Shown here one piece after another: positions 34,855-44,511 of a stretch of 47,222 nt of DNA. The stretch is from NCBI GenBank assembly GCA_025351825.1, contig JANXVE010000074.1, positions 1 through 47,222 of the forward strand, written 5' to 3'. Source of the DNA: Chamaesiphon sp. 341R_metabat_111 (GTDB lineage: Bacteria; Cyanobacteriota; Cyanobacteriia; Cyanobacteriales; Chamaesiphonaceae). A program made the position numbers and the translations under genes. Position 1 is the first letter of the stretch. Every line of letters begins with the position of its first letter. The notes below the pieces were generated by a model. That model saw nothing but the letters and a program-made list of their open reading frames with translations. It was not told the DNA's origin and searched no databases.

Positions 34855-35466
34855 TCAGTTACCTAATTCATCTGGAAGCACAAAAGAACCATCGGGATGG
34901 GATTCTAGATCGATCGAGTCGCTCACTGCATCGATATTTAGTTCACCATAGATGTGGGGAAAGAGATTATTGGCATCTATGCCTTCGTAGCGAATTTCTG
35001 GGGTGACTCGATCGACATCAATTTTGAGGATCACCAAATCTGTTTGATTTTTGAAAAAGCGATTTGCCGATCCGAGCAGTTGGATCGGAGTAGAGCAGTG
35101 GATAAATCCTTCTGAATCTAAGGTATTGCTACGGTAAGTGCCGAGATTTTTGGCTTGTTCCCACTCATGCCGTTGGGTAATGTGCAGAATAGTATTCATG
35201 GAATTTATTACCGCTGCGGCAACTTTAGGTACATCATGAGGCTGAACGAGATAATACCATATTCTGGCTGGCAAAATGAAGACCATCGGGCCATTGCCAC
35301 AGTTGCCGAGGCAGCCGCAGCCTTCGTAGATGACGTTGGGGGTTTTCAGTTGACGGAAAGCAGCTAAGACTTTTGCCGCACCTTGTTTGCGGCAGGTGAG
35401 ATGTTGACAAACTAATACCGAACTTTTAGCTGGAGCTGAATAATTGTTATCTGGATTTTGATTCAC
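34855..35466 (-). CDS. Fusion: 2Fe-2S thioredoxin-like ferredoxin + DUF952
   Basis: A 203-aa protein with two unrelated parts. Residues 15-85 form a thioredoxin-like [2Fe-2S] ferredoxin domain: C20-x4-C25, then C50, C52, C56 in EGCGCLGNCGNGP. Residues 90-200 form a DUF952 domain: MNTILHITQRHEW, EGFIHCSTP and NNLFPHIYGEL. M90 (codon at 35199-35197) is a natural start for DUF952, so the join may have arisen by loss of a stop codon between adjacent genes. Neither domain has a known specific role. Confidence 0.8.
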   Translation of the reverse strand: MNQNPDNNYSAPAKSSVLVCQHLTCRKQGAAKVLAAFRQLKTPNVIYEGCGCLGNCGNGPMVFILPARIWYYLVQPHDVPKVAAAVINSMNTILHITQRHEWEQAKNLGTYRSNTLDSEGFIHCSTPIQLLGSANRFFKNQTDLVILKIDVDRVTPEIRYEGIDANNLFPHIYGELNIDAVSDSIDLESHPDGSFVLPDELGN

Positions 35467-35490: not shown

Positions 35491-37010
35491 CTAGCTCCAT
35501 AAATCATTGTTAACATCTACATCTGAACTATCAATTTTTGGGACTAAAAGCTGTTGAATTGTTGAGTGTAGTTGTCTGAGTTTAACTGGTTTGGTGAAAT
35601 AATCATTTGCTCCAGCTCTGAGACATTTTTCTCGATCGCCATCCATTGCCAATGCAGTGAGGGCAATAATTGGAATTGCGACTAACTGAGTATTGCGACG
35701 AATTTTAACGATCGCTTCCAATCCATCCATTCCAGGCATTTGGATATCCATCAGAATCAAGTCAGGATGATGTTTTTGGGTGAGTTCGATGGCGGCTTGA
35801 CCATCATTGGCAACGATCGATCGATAGCCTTTGGCAGTAAGATAACTCTCGATCGTATTCACATTCAATACATTATCTTCAACGATTAGAATTAGTGGTG
35901 ATGATACAGGTGTTTCGGAAATTTCTGCGGCGATGAGATCGGGTTTATCCTCAGTGGCATTTGTATAGTAGTTAGTACTATCCATCGTAACGTCAAAATT
36001 ATCTAAGTTGTGTGGTAGACATACCTGAAAACAATTACCTTTACCGATACTTTGACAACTGAGATTACCACCGTGTAATGCGACAATTGGTTGCACGAGC
36101 ATTAAGCCCAAACCGACATGCCGATCTTGACTTGGTGAAAAGTGTGCAGCACAGTTACTGGCATCGATTGCTGGCGCGGACGGCAAGCCGTTCGAGGAAA
36201 CTTCTTTGCTAGTATCGATAATCGCAAACTGAATTGAAGCGATCTCGCTAGCGATCGAATTAGCGATTGTCAAATCTTCAACTTGTGTCACTACCAGCTC
36301 AACTTTACCGCCGACGGGAGTAGAATCGATCGCGTGACTGAGGAGATCGATCAATACCTGCCGCATCCGCTGGAAATCGATGTAAATACTAGACAGATCG
36401 ATCGGGATACTTAGATCTAGTTGAATTTGTTTTTGCGTTGCATTGTATTCGACAAAACTAATGCTAGATTGACAGAGTTCGATAACGGTAACATTAGTCA
36501 AATCTAGCTCTAGCTTCCCTGCTTGAATTTGGGAAAGATCGGCCATATTGTCAATCAATGCCAGTAGATATTCACCACTGCGATCGATCGTCTGAACTGC
36601 ATTTAACTGAAGTTCATTTAGGGTGCCAAAGACTCCTTCGAGCAATGCCTCAGACATGCCCAAAATGCCATTCAGCGGATTCCGAAACTCATGGCTGACT
36701 GTTGGACGAATTCATCGGTAAAGTAGTTTGTACCGCCAAATTGCTGTGAGGACGGCAGGATTGATGAGCGTAACTGAGGATAGCTGTGTTCGAGATGGGC
36801 GATTTCTGCTTGGGCACCAGCTTTGACATAGCAATCATAAGCATCCTGGCGATAGACTGCGGCGATTTTTTCTTTGTCCCATTCTGCATAAAATTCGGCA
36901 GCACACTCGTGGGCGAGAGCTTCAGCCGTAAGGGATTGACTCGCTTGTGCGGCAATAATCTCACGCTCTAGCCTGTCGATTTCCTTGGCGTATTGTTCTA
37001 AGGTTGCCAC
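35491..37010 (-). pseudogene. Degenerate hybrid histidine kinase-receiver with frameshift
   Basis: Two frames make one protein: 37010-36672 (112 aa, C-terminal part of the helical repeat region, SYPQLRSSILPS) and 36693-35491. The first frame reads DEFVQQSAM, the second T-V-SHEFRNPLNGILGMSEAL; adding one base near 36699-36706 restores DEFVQ-TVSHEF. The phosphoacceptor His is thus only in the frame without a start; the start 36663 lies 10 residues after it. The ATPase part is worn (DLLSHAIDST for NLLNNAVKFT; no DTGIGI) but GLGLMLVQPIVALHGG remains. The receiver (about 245-365, MDIQMPGMDG) looks intact. It resembles the adjacent giant kinase. Confidence 0.8.
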
Positions 37011-37055: not shown

Positions 37056-40000
37056 TTAATTTAGCTGTAGATATTCTCGAATTGGCTGGGGTAAATTGAG
37101 ATGAGTTTGGGGGATAATCGCTGTGAAGCAACTGCCCCGTCCGACTTCGCTGTCGATCGTCACATCGCCGCCATGTAATTCTACAATTTGTTTGACTAAT
37201 ACCAGTCCTAGTCCAGTGCCCTCATATTTGCGGCTGAGGCTGCTATCGATTTGGATGAAGGGTTGAAACAGTTTGGTGAGATCGGCACTAGAGATGCCAA
37301 TTCCGGTGTCACTGACAGCAAAACAGATGGCATAACCTGCGGTTTGGGCAGAGATTTCGATCGGCTCAATTTTTACTGTTAGGGTGACAGTTCCACCCGT
37401 GGGGGTAAATTTAACGGCATTATTGAGCAAATTAATTAATACTTGCCGCATCCGGCGTTCGTCGATCGAGATTGGCTCCAAGTCATCGGGTAAATAAGTA
37501 TCGATCTGGATTTGCTTGTCGAATGCCTGTTGTTTGACTAACATCAGACTCGATTTACACAGTTCGGGCAAGAGCACCTGAGTGATGTTTAATTCCAATT
37601 TTCCGGCGGCAATCTTGGAGACATCGAGAATGTCGTTAATCAGTGATAGTAGATGTTCACCACTTTGCTCGATCGTCAAAATTGCATCGAGTTGACGGGG
37701 ATTAATTGCGCCGAATATTTCTTCTTGTAAGGCTTCAGACATGCCCAGAATGGCATTGAGCGGTGTGCGTAATTCGTGACTCATCGTTGCCAGAAATTCG
37801 TCCTTGAGCCGAGTTGCCTGTTCGAGTTTGGCAACTGTTGATTCCAATCGTTGGTTAGTGAGATTCACTTCACGTTGGGCTTGCTGCCGCTCGCCGATCG
37901 CGATCTGTTGTTCGATTAATAGTGTTTCCAGATCGCGCTGCTTGAGTTTGATATCTTCCGATGCCTGTTGAGATTTTTGATAAAGATTGGCATTTTCTAA
38001 GGCGATCGCCGCTTGAGTACAGAGAAAAGAAATCACCTGTTTGCTATTTTCGGTAAAAATATCTGAAGCGTGACGATGTTCTAGGTAGAGTACGCCCAAA
38101 ACTTTCTTTTTGTTGACGATCGGGAGGCAGAAGACACTCTGGGGCTGATGTTCGCGTAAATACAGATCGGCAACTTCTAGGGGCTGACGAGCATCAAAAA
38201 TAAGCGATTGTTGAGTATTTTCAATCCACGCAATTAAGCTAGCTGGATACTCAACTTTATCAGTGAGATTGGATGGAACCTCAGTCGCGATTAGTTCTTG
38301 TCCAACAATTCGATTCCACCTAATCTGCCAATCGTTTTGAGGCTTTGATAATGCCAAACAGCAGGCTTGGGCACCGGAATTTTGGAGAATAATTTGACTG
38401 AGCTGTTGGATTAATTGTTCGAGATCGATCGTGCTAGATAGAGCTTGAGCGGATTGAATTACTGAAGCCAAGTCAAAAGTTGAATTCTGACGATTTAGCC
38501 AGCTTTTACTGGCAGGATCGGTAACTTTTGCTAAAGTAACTAGAGGATTAAATGCTGCCTGTTGAGCTTGGAGAATCGGAGCTAGCAGTTGTGGATAGCT
38601 GTGTTCTAACTGAGTTGTTTTCGCTGTTGCACCCCAGCGCAGGTAGCAATAGTAAGCCGATCGCATATATGTCGCCGCAAGTTTTTCGTTACCGCTGTGG
38701 AGATAAAATCGCGCTGTACATTCAGAAGCGATCGCTTCTTCTTGGACAAATCCGTGAGTTTTGGCACCCTGAATCGCTCGCTGATAGAGTTCGATCGCGA
38801 CCGGAAATTCCCCCAGCACCCGATACTTTTCCGCTTCGACTAAATCATACTTATGTTGGAAATTAGCTGGCATTAGTCGCGCACATTTTAGCAATTTGCG
38901 CTGAGTTGAGTTGACTCGATCGAGCAGTTTTTTCTGCACTCGTCGTTCGCTCTGAGGATAAACTGCCAATCGAGTCAGCGCGTCAAACATCCATAGTTGG
39001 GTAACTGAATAGCAGTTAGAATCAGCATGTTCATAAGGTAACTGAGCATCTGCGTAGATCAGGGCACCGGAACTATCTGTCAGCAGATAAGCTAGGCAGG
39101 TTTTCAAAGCATAAATTGTTGAAAGAGCGGAAGCTTCGCCACCATTTTTTAATCGATCGATTAAAGCTACTTCTTGGATTCGCTCGCTCGCTAACAGTGT
39201 CGGTTGAGTAGAGACTAAGCGTAAATTTTGAACCGTATAGTTAAACAAAGATGATAGTTCTTGACTATAATCTTGAGACTCTGCAAAAGTACTTCTATTT
39301 CTAGCGATCTCTGCTGCCAATCGATCTAAAGATTCGCCCAAATAAAAGTCGATAATCATCGAAACATAATAGCTCAATCCCAGTGCTGTCAAGTTGCCGC
39401 TTGCCACACATCCGGCGATACATTCTTCAATTAGCGGCTTACTATCCCGCAGATGTTTGCGCCAGGGTTGACAGAACCAGGCAACTGCACCGTTGACTTG
39501 GGCTGTCGTCGATCGATTATCGAATTTGGCATCTAGCTCGATCGCCAGTTCACCCATTTGATAGCTCTGATTGAGATCGTTTAAGCTAGCGAGAATAATT
39601 CCATAAGCAGCATAAAAAACTGCTGCCCAAGGCGTATTTCCATAGCGCAATGTCTGCCTAATTCCCGCCGTAATCATTACCACCATCAGATCTTGTGAAC
39701 ACATAAAAGCTGGGATTAAAAGATGATGTAAAACTCGCACTAGAGCAATTTTTTCTGGCGCAGTGGCTGCTGGTATATTGACTAAATTTGCCGAAGATCT
39801 GCCCCACAAATCAGCTTTAGTATTGAGGATTGCTCTCACCAATGTCAATTTGTTGGGCTGGGGATCTAATTTTAGTCCCAACTGCCGAAGAATGGCTAAT
39901 CCCTGGGAGATTGCCGCTTGATGCTGCTTTTGAATCACATGACATTGAATCATCGTTTCGTAAGCTTTGACTCGATCGAGCGGTGTTTTTGCCCGTTCTA

Positions 40001-42539
40001 GCACTAGGTTTACTAGCTTTGGCACTGCTGCGAAGTCACCCTTGAGCAAGGTATTTTCTGCCAGGATTTCATGTAGTGCGAGACTTAGTTGATACTGCTG
40101 CTGCCAAGCCAATTTTCCGAGTAATTGAATGCCACTCTCTGCGTAGCTAACCGCCGCCGTATAAGCAGTTGCCGTTCTAGCTTTCTCCGCCGCCAAGAGA
40201 TTCAGTGCCGCCACCAGTTCCCGCTCATCGGGCTGCTGAATTAACCCAGCCCCAGTATTAAAATGATTGACGATTTCAAACAGCCGCTCTGACTGCTGTT
40301 CCGGCGGCGTATTGGCAAATAATAATCTCCCAATCTTCAGATGCGTCTGCCGTCTCTCACTCTCTGGAATCAACGTATACGCCGCCTGCTGAACTCGATC
40401 GTGCAAAAAACGATAAGTTGAACTAGCCGCAGGCATCTCAAACACCCGATTCATCCCAGTAACGTAATCCTGTGCATCCCGTAAATCCTCTAAATCCTGA
40501 TAAAGTTTATAGATTTGGCTAGTGGGCAGAACCAGCCCCGCCTGCAATCCATTCCACACTGCCGTCGTCACCAGTTGCGGCTGCTCAGAGACGATCGATA
40601 GCACCTCCAGATCGAATCTATCGCCAATACAGGCAGCTAATTTGAGCACATCCTGAGTCGCCAGCGGCAATTTCTGGATCTGGATGGCGATGAATTCCAC
40701 TACATCATCAGTAATTGCCAAAGATTGGATCTTCACAATGTCACATTCCCAGTAGCCATCAGGATTGAACCTAATCTCGCCATCTGCGTGTAACGCCTTG
40801 AGAAACTGCATGATAAATAGCGGATTACCATGAGTTTTGAGATCGATCGAGGCTGTCAGCGGCTGGGCACGATCGATCGCACAGTGCAAAGTATCCGCCA
40901 CTAGTCGATTTGTATCGGCAAAAGTCAGCGGTGCTAGGGTAATTTTACTGACAACCGATCTCGTTGGCGGAGCCTCTCTGGAAGAGAATCGACACAATTT
41001 CTCCAGCATCAACATCAGCGGGTGAGTTGGGGACACCTCATTATCGCGATATGCCCCCAATAGCAGCAGATAGCCCTTGCTCTCCATCAACAGTTCGATC
41101 GATTGGAGCGAAGCCGAATCAGCCCACTGCAAATCATCCAGAAACAACACCAGCGGATGCGCGGCGGTGGTAAATACCCCAATCAACCGTTGAAACAACA
41201 GGTTGAATCGATTTTGAGCGGCTGTACCTGAGAGTTCGGCAACAGGTGGTTGGGAGCCAATAATTTTTGCAAGTTCCGGAATTGTCTCAATTAAAACCCG
41301 ACCATTTTCCCCCACGGCTGCCAAAATCTGTTGCTGCCAGCTAGCTAACTGGGCACTATCTTCGCTTAATAATTGACCGATTAAATCTCGAAAAGCTTGA
41401 ATGAAAGCACTAAACGGAATGTTGCGATTAAACTGGTCGAATTTACCCTTAATAAAGTAGCCACGTTGTCTAACGATCGGCTGATGAATTTCGTTAATCA
41501 CTGCCGTTTTGCCAATGCCCGAATCGCCAGCTACTAGCAGCAATTCACTACTGCCAGCACTCACTCGATCGAAGGCATCGAGCAAAGTTTGCACCTCTTG
41601 TTCCCGTCCATACAGCCGTTCGGGGATCAGAAATCTACTGCTAATATCTCGTCCAGCTAATTCAAATTCAGCATCTGGATCTGCGTCTTGAAATTGGCGC
41701 AAGCACTTCTCTAAGTCATACTTAATACCCACAGCAGTCTGATAGCGATCCTCAACATTTTTAGCCATTAATTTGGTGACTATTTGGGATAAAACTACCG
41801 GAATACCTGAATTAACTAGATGGATTGGCGTTGCGACTTGAGCCAGATGGCAGTGAATTAAAGCGATCGGATCTTCAGTTATAAACGGCAACTCACCAGT
41901 TAGCAATTCATACAAAGTAACTCCCAATGCATAAAAATCAGTCCGATAATCAATGCCCCGATTCATTCGCCCTGTCTGCTCTGGCGATAGATAAGCAAGA
42001 GTTCCTTCGATGCAATGGGGACTGACAATTTCCTGAGTTTCGCGCGGCAGTAGAGCCGCGATCCTCAGATCGATTAGCTTCACCTGCTTGGTGACAGGAT
42101 GAATCAAAATATTCGCAGGTTTAAGATCCTTATGGATGATTCTGTGCTGTCCTAAACTATGTAAAGTAGCCGCAAGCTGAATGCCAATCTCCAATACATC
42201 CACCACCGACCAGCTAATCCGCTCAGTGAGCGGAGCCGAACTGACCGCTAACGAAATCCCCCCAAAATCTTCCAGTACCAGTGCATAGCCCCGCTCATGC
42301 TCCTCTAAGCTATAGTGACGAACGACTCCAGGTAGATCCAAATTCTTGGCGATCGCATACTGATGCCGAAATTCGAGCAAGTCTCGATCGCTCGGATACG
42401 GAGATGACAGCACTCTGAGCGTAACAATTAATCGATCGGCTGTACGTTCGGCACGATATGCGATCGTTTTGGTATCACGGTAGAGTTCCTCAATAATTCG
42501 GTAGCCAGGAATCTGAAAGTTGAAGCTGCTCATTGTCAT
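37056..42539 (-). CDS. Giant Ser/Thr-kinase-like / AAA ATPase / GAF / histidine kinase
   Basis: 1827 aa, complete. Residues 1-285 form a Ser/Thr kinase-like domain: HKDLKPAN (136-143) is kept, but the VAIK Lys position reads LRVL (R42) and DFG reads DLR (157-159). Residues 300-560 form an AAA+ ATPase with Walker A GDSGIGKT (338-345) and Walker B LFLDDLQWAD (465-474). Residues 600-1340 are a helical TPR-like region. A GAF lies at about 1370-1530, then a coiled coil, HisKA (SHELRTPLN, His1588) and HATPase with NLLNNAVKFT, DTGIGI and GTGLGLV all intact. No receiver. Typical of cyanobacterial multi-sensor kinases. Autophosphorylation on His is plausible; Ser/Thr activity is doubtful. Confidence 0.88.
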   Translation of the reverse strand: MTMSSFNFQIPGYRIIEELYRDTKTIAYRAERTADRLIVTLRVLSSPYPSDRDLLEFRHQYAIAKNLDLPGVVRHYSLEEHERGYALVLEDFGGISLAVSSAPLTERISWSVVDVLEIGIQLAATLHSLGQHRIIHKDLKPANILIHPVTKQVKLIDLRIAALLPRETQEIVSPHCIEGTLAYLSPEQTGRMNRGIDYRTDFYALGVTLYELLTGELPFITEDPIALIHCHLAQVATPIHLVNSGIPVVLSQIVTKLMAKNVEDRYQTAVGIKYDLEKCLRQFQDADPDAEFELAGRDISSRFLIPERLYGREQEVQTLLDAFDRVSAGSSELLLVAGDSGIGKTAVINEIHQPIVRQRGYFIKGKFDQFNRNIPFSAFIQAFRDLIGQLLSEDSAQLASWQQQILAAVGENGRVLIETIPELAKIIGSQPPVAELSGTAAQNRFNLLFQRLIGVFTTAAHPLVLFLDDLQWADSASLQSIELLMESKGYLLLLGAYRDNEVSPTHPLMLMLEKLCRFSSREAPPTRSVVSKITLAPLTFADTNRLVADTLHCAIDRAQPLTASIDLKTHGNPLFIMQFLKALHADGEIRFNPDGYWECDIVKIQSLAITDDVVEFIAIQIQKLPLATQDVLKLAACIGDRFDLEVLSIVSEQPQLVTTAVWNGLQAGLVLPTSQIYKLYQDLEDLRDAQDYVTGMNRVFEMPAASSTYRFLHDRVQQAAYTLIPESERRQTHLKIGRLLFANTPPEQQSERLFEIVNHFNTGAGLIQQPDERELVAALNLLAAEKARTATAYTAAVSYAESGIQLLGKLAWQQQYQLSLALHEILAENTLLKGDFAAVPKLVNLVLERAKTPLDRVKAYETMIQCHVIQKQHQAAISQGLAILRQLGLKLDPQPNKLTLVRAILNTKADLWGRSSANLVNIPAATAPEKIALVRVLHHLLIPAFMCSQDLMVVMITAGIRQTLRYGNTPWAAVFYAAYGIILASLNDLNQSYQMGELAIELDAKFDNRSTTAQVNGAVAWFCQPWRKHLRDSKPLIEECIAGCVASGNLTALGLSYYVSMIIDFYLGESLDRLAAEIARNRSTFAESQDYSQELSSLFNYTVQNLRLVSTQPTLLASERIQEVALIDRLKNGGEASALSTIYALKTCLAYLLTDSSGALIYADAQLPYEHADSNCYSVTQLWMFDALTRLAVYPQSERRVQKKLLDRVNSTQRKLLKCARLMPANFQHKYDLVEAEKYRVLGEFPVAIELYQRAIQGAKTHGFVQEEAIASECTARFYLHSGNEKLAATYMRSAYYCYLRWGATAKTTQLEHSYPQLLAPILQAQQAAFNPLVTLAKVTDPASKSWLNRQNSTFDLASVIQSAQALSSTIDLEQLIQQLSQIILQNSGAQACCLALSKPQNDWQIRWNRIVGQELIATEVPSNLTDKVEYPASLIAWIENTQQSLIFDARQPLEVADLYLREHQPQSVFCLPIVNKKKVLGVLYLEHRHASDIFTENSKQVISFLCTQAAIALENANLYQKSQQASEDIKLKQRDLETLLIEQQIAIGERQQAQREVNLTNQRLESTVAKLEQATRLKDEFLATMSHELRTPLNAILGMSEALQEEIFGAINPRQLDAILTIEQSGEHLLSLINDILDVSKIAAGKLELNITQVLLPELCKSSLMLVKQQAFDKQIQIDTYLPDDLEPISIDERRMRQVLINLLNNAVKFTPTGGTVTLTVKIEPIEISAQTAGYAICFAVSDTGIGISSADLTKLFQPFIQIDSSLSRKYEGTGLGLVLVKQIVELHGGDVTIDSEVGRGSCFTAIIPQTHLNLPQPIREYLQLN
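40961..40990. repeat. Dispersed repeat inside the giant kinase ORF
   Basis: TCGTTGGCGGAGCCTCTCTG then GAAGAGAATC matches the intergenic repeat copies at 6420-6452 and 44809-44825. Read on the minus strand in frame it encodes RFSSREAPPTRS (about residues 517-528) in a loop between ATPase strands. It keeps the reading frame. Confidence 0.7.
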
Positions 42540-42658: not shown

Positions 42659-43216
42659 TTACGATCGTCCAGTCAAGAATGCCAATGTATAAAATGAATT
42701 ACCATTAAATTCAAATTCATCGATGATGTCTAGCTTCAGTTTGCGCGTGTGCGCTGCAAACGATCGCTCGTTAATCTTATTAATAAAAGTCACTCCGATG
42801 GGAAACTTCGGTGCAAAAGACACTCGCATTAGATCGAATAATTCTGGAAAAACTTGGCTACCGCGACTGGATCGATCGATACAAATTGGCCCATACTGAA
42901 AGCTATTATCGACAGTTATTTGCTGACCCCGATAGCTCAATTGTGGCAACTTGTCGATCATCACTTTAAATATTGCCCACTGCGAAAAAAACTCCCAATC
43001 ACCTGCCAGTAAGTAGCCAATGACTTGCTGCTCATTTACAGCGACAAATACACCATCCTGAATCATCAACAGCCGTAACAATTCACTCGAAAAAGGAGTA
43101 GTCACAAAGCCACCAGGTAATTCGGTGGCGGCTAAATTTGCATAGAGATTGCGCGCCTGAAGATCGAGGATCCCAGTAAAATCTAACTCAGTAGCAGTTC
43201 TAATTATTGGAGACAT
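42659..43216 (-). CDS. GNAT-family N-acetyltransferase
   Basis: A 185-aa protein with the GNAT layout: IIRTATELDFTGILDLQARN at the N-terminus, the central strand VFVAVNEQQVIGYLLAG, and QYGPICIDRSSRGSQVFPEL in place of the acetyl-CoA loop. The motif-A sequence is weak (SSRGSQV for RGxGIG), so cofactor binding is less certain. Substrate unknown. It follows the serine hydrolase gene by 26 bp on the same strand. Confidence 0.72.
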   Translation of the reverse strand: MSPIIRTATELDFTGILDLQARNLYANLAATELPGGFVTTPFSSELLRLLMIQDGVFVAVNEQQVIGYLLAGDWEFFSQWAIFKVMIDKLPQLSYRGQQITVDNSFQYGPICIDRSSRGSQVFPELFDLMRVSFAPKFPIGVTFINKINERSFAAHTRKLKLDIIDEFEFNGNSFYTLAFLTGRS

Positions 43217-43224
43217 TTACTATT

Positions 43225-43248
43225 CACTAAACCACTAAACCACTAATT
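43225..43248. repeat. Octamer repeat CACTAAAC
   Basis: Exact CACTAAAC at 43225-43232 and 43233-43240, then CACTAATT. It spans the spacer and overlaps the stop codon of the serine hydrolase gene. Confidence 0.7.
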
Positions 43249-44511
43249 CTTACTAATTTGTCGATCGTTAATATAGTTATAAGTCAACCTTGATACTGCT
43301 TGGACAAAATCACGAGCACGCAGATCGTTAAAAGAACGCTGGACAAAAATACCTGCTAAATAAAGTTTCCCGTTTGGCATTTCAATAATTCCAGCATCAC
43401 CAATTAGTCGTCCCAACGTACCCGTCTTGTGAGCAATTGCCGCACCTTTGCCCAAACCTGCGGGGAGTAGTTTGCGATTTTCAGTTTGATTGAGAATATC
43501 TAGAACTTTGCCGCGACTAGCCTCACTAATTAATTGATGCTTGGCGAGTAAAGCTGAGATCCTGACCAAATCTGCGGGACTAGTCGTATTTTTGCCTGTA
43601 AAATCTCCTAATAGGCGATTAATGACTGTCTTCCTCAGCCCCCAACTCTTGAACCGACTATTAAGAGCTTGCCGTCCACCCAATTTATCGATAATCATAT
43701 TCGTGCCAGTATTGTCACTGATCGCGATCATCATCGTGGCTGTTTTCAGCACACTCAATCTCGCACCAGGGCTATTTTGCAGCTCTCCAGACCCCCCCGC
43801 AATCAGATCTCGGCGAACTGTCAAGGTATCATCTAGCCGCACTTTTCCACTGTCCACAGCTTGAAATAAAGCCATCAAAATTGGCAATTTAATCGTACTT
43901 GCCGCCGGAAAACTCTTCTCGCCATTAATATCTAGATAGTTTCCCGTATCCACTTCCATGAAAAACATTCCAGGGGAAAGATAGTCATACTTCGCCGCTA
44001 AGGTCTTGATTTGGCTCTTGAGGGCGGTCATTTCCTGTCCGATGGGTACAACCCCAGCAAAAACAATTGGGGCGATCGGAACTGGTAAGATACTTCCTGT
44101 ACTAGCTGTCGCCACACCACGCTCGATCGATCTCAATTTAATCGACCACCGATTAGGAATATCGCTGCGAATAATAATATTTTGGGGGCTAACTCCATAC
44201 CCAGGCGCGAGTTCTAGTACCAGCCGAGTGTTATTCGCATCTGCTTGAGCAATTCGCACCTCTCGCACCGCTGCTCCAAATTTCTTCCGCACAGTCGCCT
44301 CGGTCATCTTCGTGCCAGGTAAATCAACTACTAGGCGGTAGGGGCCATCGAGTAGTGTGGCTTTGGGCTGGACTCCATTATCGGTGCCGAAGTTCAATTG
44401 ATTGCGGTTGGCATCAAATTCCCAACCAGTGAATTTGCTAGCATGAGCTGGTGCTGCCAGTAATAAGCACGCGCTGCTAATTAGTCCGGTGAGGAGGTGG
44501 TTTAGTTTCAT
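43243..44511 (-). CDS. AMIN-domain serine hydrolase (class A beta-lactamase fold)
   Basis: A 422-aa exported protein. The signal peptide ends at AHAS (residue 25). An AMIN-like beta domain (about 30-130, LLDGPYRLVVDLPGTKMTE) should target the septum or peptidoglycan. A serine hydrolase domain (about 180-410) has STIK (205-208), SDN (265-267) and HKTGT (361-365). Where class A beta-lactamases carry the omega-loop Glu, I read RLLGDFTGKN, without a clear Glu, so it is more likely a peptidoglycan DD-peptidase-like protein than a resistance enzyme. Acceptor substrate unknown. Confidence 0.83.
   Translation of the reverse strand: MKLNHLLTGLISSACLLLAAPAHASKFTGWEFDANRNQLNFGTDNGVQPKATLLDGPYRLVVDLPGTKMTEATVRKKFGAAVREVRIAQADANNTRLVLELAPGYGVSPQNIIIRSDIPNRWSIKLRSIERGVATASTGSILPVPIAPIVFAGVVPIGQEMTALKSQIKTLAAKYDYLSPGMFFMEVDTGNYLDINGEKSFPAASTIKLPILMALFQAVDSGKVRLDDTLTVRRDLIAGGSGELQNSPGARLSVLKTATMMIAISDNTGTNMIIDKLGGRQALNSRFKSWGLRKTVINRLLGDFTGKNTTSPADLVRISALLAKHQLISEASRGKVLDILNQTENRKLLPAGLGKGAAIAHKTGTLGRLIGDAGIIEMPNGKLYLAGIFVQRSFNDLRARDFVQAVSRLTYNYINDRQISKN

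Follow-up and report, generated by a model that had tools for sequence, protein, structure and literature searches.

An interrupted gene for a putative pseudo-hybrid histidine kinase lies in tandem with a giant kinase gene in Chamaesiphon

Results

A giant kinase gene is followed by a small kinase gene split over two frames

The window (the whole stretch of 47,222 nucleotides analysed here) is part of a 4.06-Mb draft genome of the genus Chamaesiphon, distributed over 202 contigs, and it harbours, directly downstream of a giant kinase gene, two minus-strand open reading frames (ORF1 and ORF2) that encode consecutive parts of one protein. We refer to this pair as the small gene, whose features are:

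36672-37010, minus strand: ORF1, 112 aa from a GTG start; TPR-like tail (SYPQL) and the start of HisKA as far as DEFV, after which it reads on in the wrong frame until a TGA
35491-36711, minus strand: open frame of ORF2; H-box, remainder of HisKA, dead ATPase, linker and receiver
36704-36705, minus strand: site of a single-base deletion relative to four orthologues (in G001, G004, G005 and G006)
36673-36696, minus strand: H-box SHEFRNPL, in the ORF2 frame and upstream of all its usual starts
36322-36348, minus strand: degenerate N-box DLLSHAIDS (the giant counterpart is NLLNNAVKF)
36199-36216, minus strand: degenerate G1 box DTSKEV, in place of DTGIGI
36094-36114, minus strand: G2-like GLGLMLV, kept
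35539-35898, minus strand: receiver domain, with the phospho-acceptor Asp within MDIQMP (35734-35751) and Thr and Lys intact

Read from its first usual start codon, ORF2 spans 35491-36663, and its frame is open as far as 36711 (406 open codons). The first usual start codons, TTG at 36663 and ATG at 36657, both lie downstream of the H-box, whose histidine codon (36691-36693) is in the ORF2 frame, so that a restarted ORF2 product would be devoid of this histidine. Pfam detects HisKA (1.7e-15), HATPase_c (9.4e-10) and Response_reg (4.4e-30) in ORF2, and the key residues of the receiver (E-D, D, T and K) are all present, which bears out the initial annotation, in which the receiver had seemed intact. 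The top NCBIfam match of ORF2 is to HrmK-like hybrid kinases (NF038297, 1.2e-65), with a score of 222.4 bits that falls far under the curated cut-off of 725.

The upstream gene encodes a protein of HstK-type architecture:

37056-42539, minus strand: giant kinase, 1827 aa; Ser/Thr kinase, AAA_16, TPR-like, GAF, HisKA and HATPase
37758-37781, minus strand: H-box SHELRTPL (His1588)
37407-37433, minus strand: N-box NLLNNAVKF, intact
37293-37310, minus strand: G1 box DTGIGI, intact
37059-37094, minus strand: C-terminal tail LPQPIREYLQLN, resembling the tail behind the receiver of the G004 and G006 giants

In this 1827-aa ORF Pfam recognizes Pkinase (1.2e-24), HisKA (5.8e-19) and HATPase_c (1.6e-28), and neither Pfam nor motif comparison finds a receiver, as had been said of the upstream kinase from the start. 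Pfam detects no DNA-binding domain in the giant or the small protein. Relative to the giant of G001, some 124 residues (PAS-like by eye) are missing from the window giant between GAF and HisKA, as are far longer insertions that the giants of G004, G005 and G006 carry.

Upstream of the giant lies a conserved gene (42659-43216, 185 aa), for which neither Pfam nor NCBIfam gave a match at the thresholds applied and which also adjoins kinase genes in G001, G002, G007 and G008. Two gene fusions were observed nearby: an AMIN domain joined to a Beta-lactamase2 family domain (43243-44511, Pfam 8.1e-65) and, in one ORF at 34855-35466, a 2Fe-2S ferredoxin-like part joined to DUF952, the two being separate adjacent ORFs in G005 and G006.

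Loss of the ATPase motifs is common to the small-gene orthologues

We compared the locus with the relatives G001, G004, G005, G006 and G008, and for the giant also with G003; G004 is listed as belonging to the same genus. In G001, G004, G005 and G006, a single frame encodes the TPR-like tail, HisKA, the dead ATPase and the receiver (the last being cut near a contig end in G001), and the TPR tail is joined to HisKA in frame, without a GAF domain, in four of the four relatives that cover the join. The initial annotation had SYPQL run straight into HisKA through a one-base frameshift. A frameshift is indeed present, but 22 in-frame residues (ORF1 residues 81-102, ending in DEFV) follow SYPQL and the lesion falls inside HisKA; with the join in frame in four relatives, we reject the frameshift as its origin.

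The loss of the N-box and of DTGIGI from the small gene had been read correctly, and it extends to the whole family: the second N-box Asn is replaced in six of six orthologues (by H, H, Q, R, R and H in the window, G001, G004, G005, G006 and G008, respectively), and the G1 box reads DTSK[ED][IV] in all six, with both of its Gly gone. Each of the five orthologues whose sequence reaches the H-box carries SHEFRNPL there, the window copy in the ORF2 frame only. The acidic pair, the phospho-Asp, a Thr or Ser and the Lys are present in all five complete small receivers (window, G004, G005, G006 and G008). Receiver and ATPase share one frame in the window, G004, G005 and G006; a TGA separates them in G008, and in G001 the receiver is cut. 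The whole orthologues of G004, G005 and G006 hold degenerate ATPase, H-box and receiver in one chain, which is interrupted in the window copy. As the ATPase motif losses are common to the unbroken orthologues, they are not damage that followed the window frameshift. Decay of the ATPase as a consequence of the frameshift is therefore rejected, and so is the earlier idea that the join and the losses of N-box and DTGIGI were one decay, given that the join is in frame in the orthologues and the motif losses are ancestral. Judged from its motifs, the ATPase of the small protein should not bind Mg-ATP.

The rarity of this state was gauged in a survey of 128 HisKA-ATPase units, gathered as matches to the small kinase and not as a random sample, in which 123 units have both motifs and the other five, all of the small-gene family, have neither. 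The set is what remained of 134 units once those shorter than 225 residues and a truncated duplicate row for the window had been set aside; G008 is absent from it, its H-box region being gone. In a tree of 105 rows (the better-scoring rows of the 128, plus the giants), the small proteins form a clade with an SH-aLRT support of 100 and a stem of 1.29, the giants form one with 99, and both fall within a 15-row Chamaesiphonaceae group (93), the sister relation of the two clades not being resolved by this tree. A receiver tree of 92 rows and 117 columns, too few to resolve the question, did not reject small and giant receivers as one clade (p-AU 0.667), and the topology so constrained scored 10.97 above the free search. 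By the alignments and the 105-row tree, the small gene is a tandem paralogue of the giant whose turn into a pseudo-kinase preceded the divergence of the sampled orthologues, several of which are still whole.

The giants keep their ATPase motifs and tend to lose their receiver

The giants present the reciprocal pattern. All six (window, G001, G003, G004, G005 and G006) keep the N-box Asn and DTGIGI. The giant receiver is absent from the window and G001, its phospho-acceptor Asp is changed to Asn in G006 and G003, and its acidic-pair Asp is replaced by Ser in G005; it is intact only in G004 and thus absent or altered in five of the six. Among kinase-attached receivers at large, a survey covering 115 of the 134 units found the phospho-Asp in 113. 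A Fisher test with G003 added gave p 0.0003, a value that is indicative only, as the test was set after the pattern had been seen and treats the relatives as independent. The G003 giant was placed with the others on its similarity (70% across the kinase) and not by tree, and its contig ends within the receiver; a single Asp-to-Asn event is probably common to G003 and G006, which would put the independent receiver losses among giants at about three.

The C-terminal tail of the window giant offers a trace of how its receiver went. It matches the post-receiver tail at 7 of 12 positions in G004 and likewise in G006, and at 3-4 of 12 in G005, and the tail of the G001 giant matches at 6 of 12; a shuffle test, chosen after looking, gave 1 of 20,000. 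Because the tail resembles the one behind the G004 and G006 receivers, an in-frame excision directly upstream of it probably removed the receiver of the window giant.

Rates of change follow the same division. In each of three species pairs, receiver dN is lower in the small protein than in the giant by more than half (small/giant 0.139/0.316 for G006-G004, 0.140/0.348 for G006-G005 and 0.130/0.265 for G004-G005), and the corresponding ATPase values are 0.353/0.242, 0.336/0.243 and 0.307/0.221. The giant receivers are still at an omega of 0.195-0.342 and thus are not simply dead. This reciprocity between giant and small gene, resting on few genomes, is to us the most interesting result. The division is not fixed, as G004 has an intact giant receiver beside an intact small protein.

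The small gene was under constraint as a whole until recently

The single-base lesion exists in the present assembly. It lies inside HisKA, just ahead of the H-box, between DEFV (…NYFTDEFV) and SHEF, at a junction that is crossed in one frame in G001, G004, G005 and G006 and at which the window is one base shorter. Between the window and G001, NG86 omega (quoted throughout pairwise comparisons, YN00 often being undefined) is 0.18 overall, 0.16 for the N-terminal part, 0.055 for HisKA, 0.23 for the ATPase remnant and 0.042 for the receiver, the last over just 25 shared codons; between the window and G008, the receiver is at 0.10 (0.102). Branch tests, run with a custom codon model on one assumed tree, gave an omega of 0.164 for the window branch downstream of the lesion versus 0.172 for the background, with omega=1 rejected (2dlnL 8.76). 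By part, the window-branch receiver is at 0.095, with omega=1 again rejected (2dlnL 4.97); the ATPase shows no extra relaxation (0.272 versus 0.277; omega=1 not rejected, 2dlnL 2.52); the branch is too short to inform on HisKA (1.66) and the N-terminus (0.82), for which omega=1 was not rejected.

The initial annotation had pointed to a comparison of dN/dS between receiver and kinase parts. The receiver is constrained, both against G008 and on the window branch, but HisKA is as constrained in the comparison with G001, and the notion that selection spared the receiver alone is not supported. With low omega across its parts and no relaxation on the window branch, the small gene was therefore under constraint as a whole until recently.

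A separate observation concerns synonymous divergence, which between the window and G001 is 0.48 for the small gene versus 1.17 for the giant and 1.04 for the upstream gene. Against G008 the contrast is weaker (small gene 0.44 and 0.67, downstream neighbours 0.65 and 0.79). Local recombination or unusual constraint are possible reasons for the low values of the small gene.

Gene loss or an assembly error may account for the frameshift

The small gene may be a plain pseudogene: once the clade's ancestor had a giant without a receiver, the small gene would no longer have been needed and would be disappearing lineage by lineage, and ORF2 would not be made; we give this account close to an even chance. 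Three different lesions in the window and the two relatives nearest to it speak for it, namely the frameshift in the window, a TGA together with loss of the 5' half (and of the giant) in G008 and a cut receiver in G001, as does the lack of a usual start codon upstream of the H-box in ORF2. In G008, the end of the upstream neighbour is fused to the middle of the small-gene ATPase, about 140 bases from the end of contig C255; relative to G001 this amounts to a 6,614-base deletion with 6-base identical ends that took the whole giant and half of the small gene. An in-frame TGA then splits off the receiver, whose frame persists beside the deleted giant, and no orthologous giant was found elsewhere in this assembly, which is 77% complete. 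The G001 lesion is perhaps an assembly artefact: receiver homology ends 68 bases before the contig end, a possible assembly edge. Outside its own place, a search with this tail matched only the receiver half of the query (in G000, G001 and G008), and the tail's 22 residues have no Pfam match at E 0.01. In G002, G003 and G007, the contigs stop short of where the small gene would lie or carry other kinase pieces. Against a plain pseudogene stand the open frame of ORF2 and the window-branch omega; with no relaxation on that branch, the loss, if it is one, must be very recent.

Alternatively, the lesion may be an assembly or consensus error and the real gene an uninterrupted, normal member of the pseudo-kinase family, an explanation that we find rather unlikely and yet worth keeping in view. 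The lesion is an indel of a single base, the assembly is a draft in many contigs and selection on the window branch is not relaxed, all of which would fit such an error. On the other hand, there is no homopolymer at 36704/36705, the same gene carries other lesions in relatives, and apparent frameshifts are uncommon in this assembly. This rarity comes from a control in which reference ORFs of the genus (from G001, G004, G005 and G006) were matched to about 441 kb of the window genome, the window included. With untrimmed ORFs, 45 best hits of at least 55% identity were obtained, of which four of the four at the small gene show the shift, and none of the 41 at other genes has a genuine one; there was one false flag (the G001 giant also matches its paralogue), and three of the 41 have a stop within the alignment, possibly from overrun before the start codon. 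Trimming the ORFs to their first Met hid the G001 query at the small gene and gave 46 hits, with three of the four at the small gene flagged, the same false flag and one stop. The frameshift thus seems to be either a recent loss or an error of assembly, added to an older division of labour, and in itself it is ordinary gene loss or error.

Discussion

On balance we favour, with some reserve, a reading in which the small ORF pair is one gene, interrupted within HisKA, whose product in Chamaesiphon is a conserved pseudo-hybrid histidine kinase, the tandem giant serving as the kinase and the small protein as a RetS-like, receiver-bearing pseudo-kinase. The anatomy, the orthology, the early loss of the motifs, the one-base lesion of the assembly, the pattern of selection and the reciprocal receiver loss are established by computation; we infer from them a physical partnership of giant and small protein and a direction of phosphate flow between them. 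Where the small gene is whole, its protein retains a phosphorylatable H-box and a complete receiver beside a dead ATPase, and the giant, with its ATPase motifs kept, tends to be without an intact receiver; duplicates of a hybrid kinase in tandem would have divided the labour in this way. Most likely, the giant would autophosphorylate on its HisKA histidine, and the small protein's receiver would take over the phosphate directly, via the small histidine or in a mixed dimer, much as between RetS and GacS or from LvrA to LvrB. In the window genome, where the tail and the start of HisKA are cut from the H-box, the working partner would be lost, and with it the function of the small protein, unless internal initiation yields a dead-ATPase/receiver fragment.

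The adjacency of the two genes and their reciprocal losses may be taken as correlative evidence for the partnership, against which counts the retention of the small receiver frame in G008, where the giant is gone. The initial annotation had seen a decayed kinase with its receiver perhaps kept as a target of the upstream kinase, and part of this can be retained: the receiver is constrained and giants lose or alter theirs, but HisKA is equally constrained and the loss of the ATPase is older than the frameshift. The first five PDB matches to the G004 orthologue as modelled by AlphaFold (mean pLDDT 77.2, pTM 0.56) include ShkA, DivL and RetS, and the active kinases ZraS, HK853 and GacS also match, ZraS and HK853 nearly as well, so that the fold does not single out a RetS-like function.

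RetS has a sensor of its own, and Spo0B is not known to have a fused receiver. In the available text on RetS of Pseudomonas aeruginosa, its HATPase is degenerate and without conserved G-boxes, its H-box is kept, and the GacS histidine is the source of the phosphate that REC2 of RetS receives (PMC5992135). The small protein resembles it as a hybrid with degenerate ATPase, H-box and receiver, and RetS structures rank high among its fold matches, but RetS has a second receiver, whereas the small protein has one receiver and no recognisable sensor; the small gene is moreover a tandem paralogue of its presumed partner, and its window copy is broken. LvrA and LvrB of Leptospira, encoded in one operon, are another precedent, LvrA phosphorylating the receiver of LvrB, which has no sensor domain according to the part of the source at hand (PMC5863495); LvrB differs in having autokinase activity of its own there, whereas the ATPase motifs of the small Chamaesiphon protein are gone. 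The family has the phosphorylatable His and the receiver of an active hybrid histidine kinase and lacks, in its ATPase, the second N-box Asn and both Gly of the G1 box. The giant, like Anabaena Alr2258 and its kin in the HstK family as the available text describes them (PMC2176072), joins a Ser/Thr kinase and a histidine kinase in one chain; the small protein differs from these as a C-terminal part only, with a dead ATPase. For hybrid-kinase networks in general, kinship of kinase and receiver is informative on signalling interactions, in the accessible portion of PMC8175716. The small gene of Chamaesiphon is not mentioned among the literature matches listed.

The whole orthologues may instead be phosphorelay intermediates of the ChpT/Spo0B kind, with phosphate moving from the giant receiver to the small histidine and on to the small receiver, which we consider unlikely. 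The H-box, conserved alongside a dead ATPase in every orthologue that covers it, is what such an intermediate would have, and pseudo-kinase phosphotransferases are known: the available portions of PMC9981736 and PMC3433190 describe a hairpin of histidine helices and, for ChpT, an atypical and functionally degenerate ATPase fold. In the same portions ChpT is without a fused receiver, whereas the small-gene family carries one; and the relay requires an intact giant receiver, which is clear only in G004 of the six giants.

More doubtful still is a liberated receiver, which would carry the idea of the initial annotation a step further, made by restart at TTG 36663 or ATG 36657 as a dead-ATPase/receiver protein without the histidine and serving as the separate receiver of the giant. 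The two starts lie 8 and 14 bases past the ORF1 stop, the window giant has intact kinase motifs and no receiver, and the receiver is under constraint on the window branch. This constraint may, however, predate the frameshift and is shared equally by HisKA, and by eye no ribosome-binding-like sequence precedes either start. Programmed -1 frameshifting, which the 37-base overlap of the ORF1 and ORF2 frames would permit and which would yield the full-length small protein, is very improbable, as by eye the overlap contains no canonical X XXY YYZ slippery heptamer and the relatives need no shift.

Going beyond the favoured reading of a kinase beside a receiver-bearing pseudo-kinase, we tentatively propose, at rather less than an even chance, that the duplicated hybrid kinases degenerated reciprocally, the giant retaining sensing and kinase and losing the receiver, the small protein retaining receiver and histidine and losing the ATPase, into one obligate two-gene hybrid kinase. 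The split would be nearly complete in the window lineage, with the giant receiver excised, the small HisKA severed and the receiver fragment possibly a separate protein. If true, this would be a clean natural case of a hybrid kinase dismantled by duplication and complementary loss. Sister species would still display the steps on the way, namely an intact receiver, altered active-site residues, an excised receiver and a broken partner, and the idea of a pseudo-kinase receiver serving a neighbouring kinase would become directly testable with two proteins of one organism.
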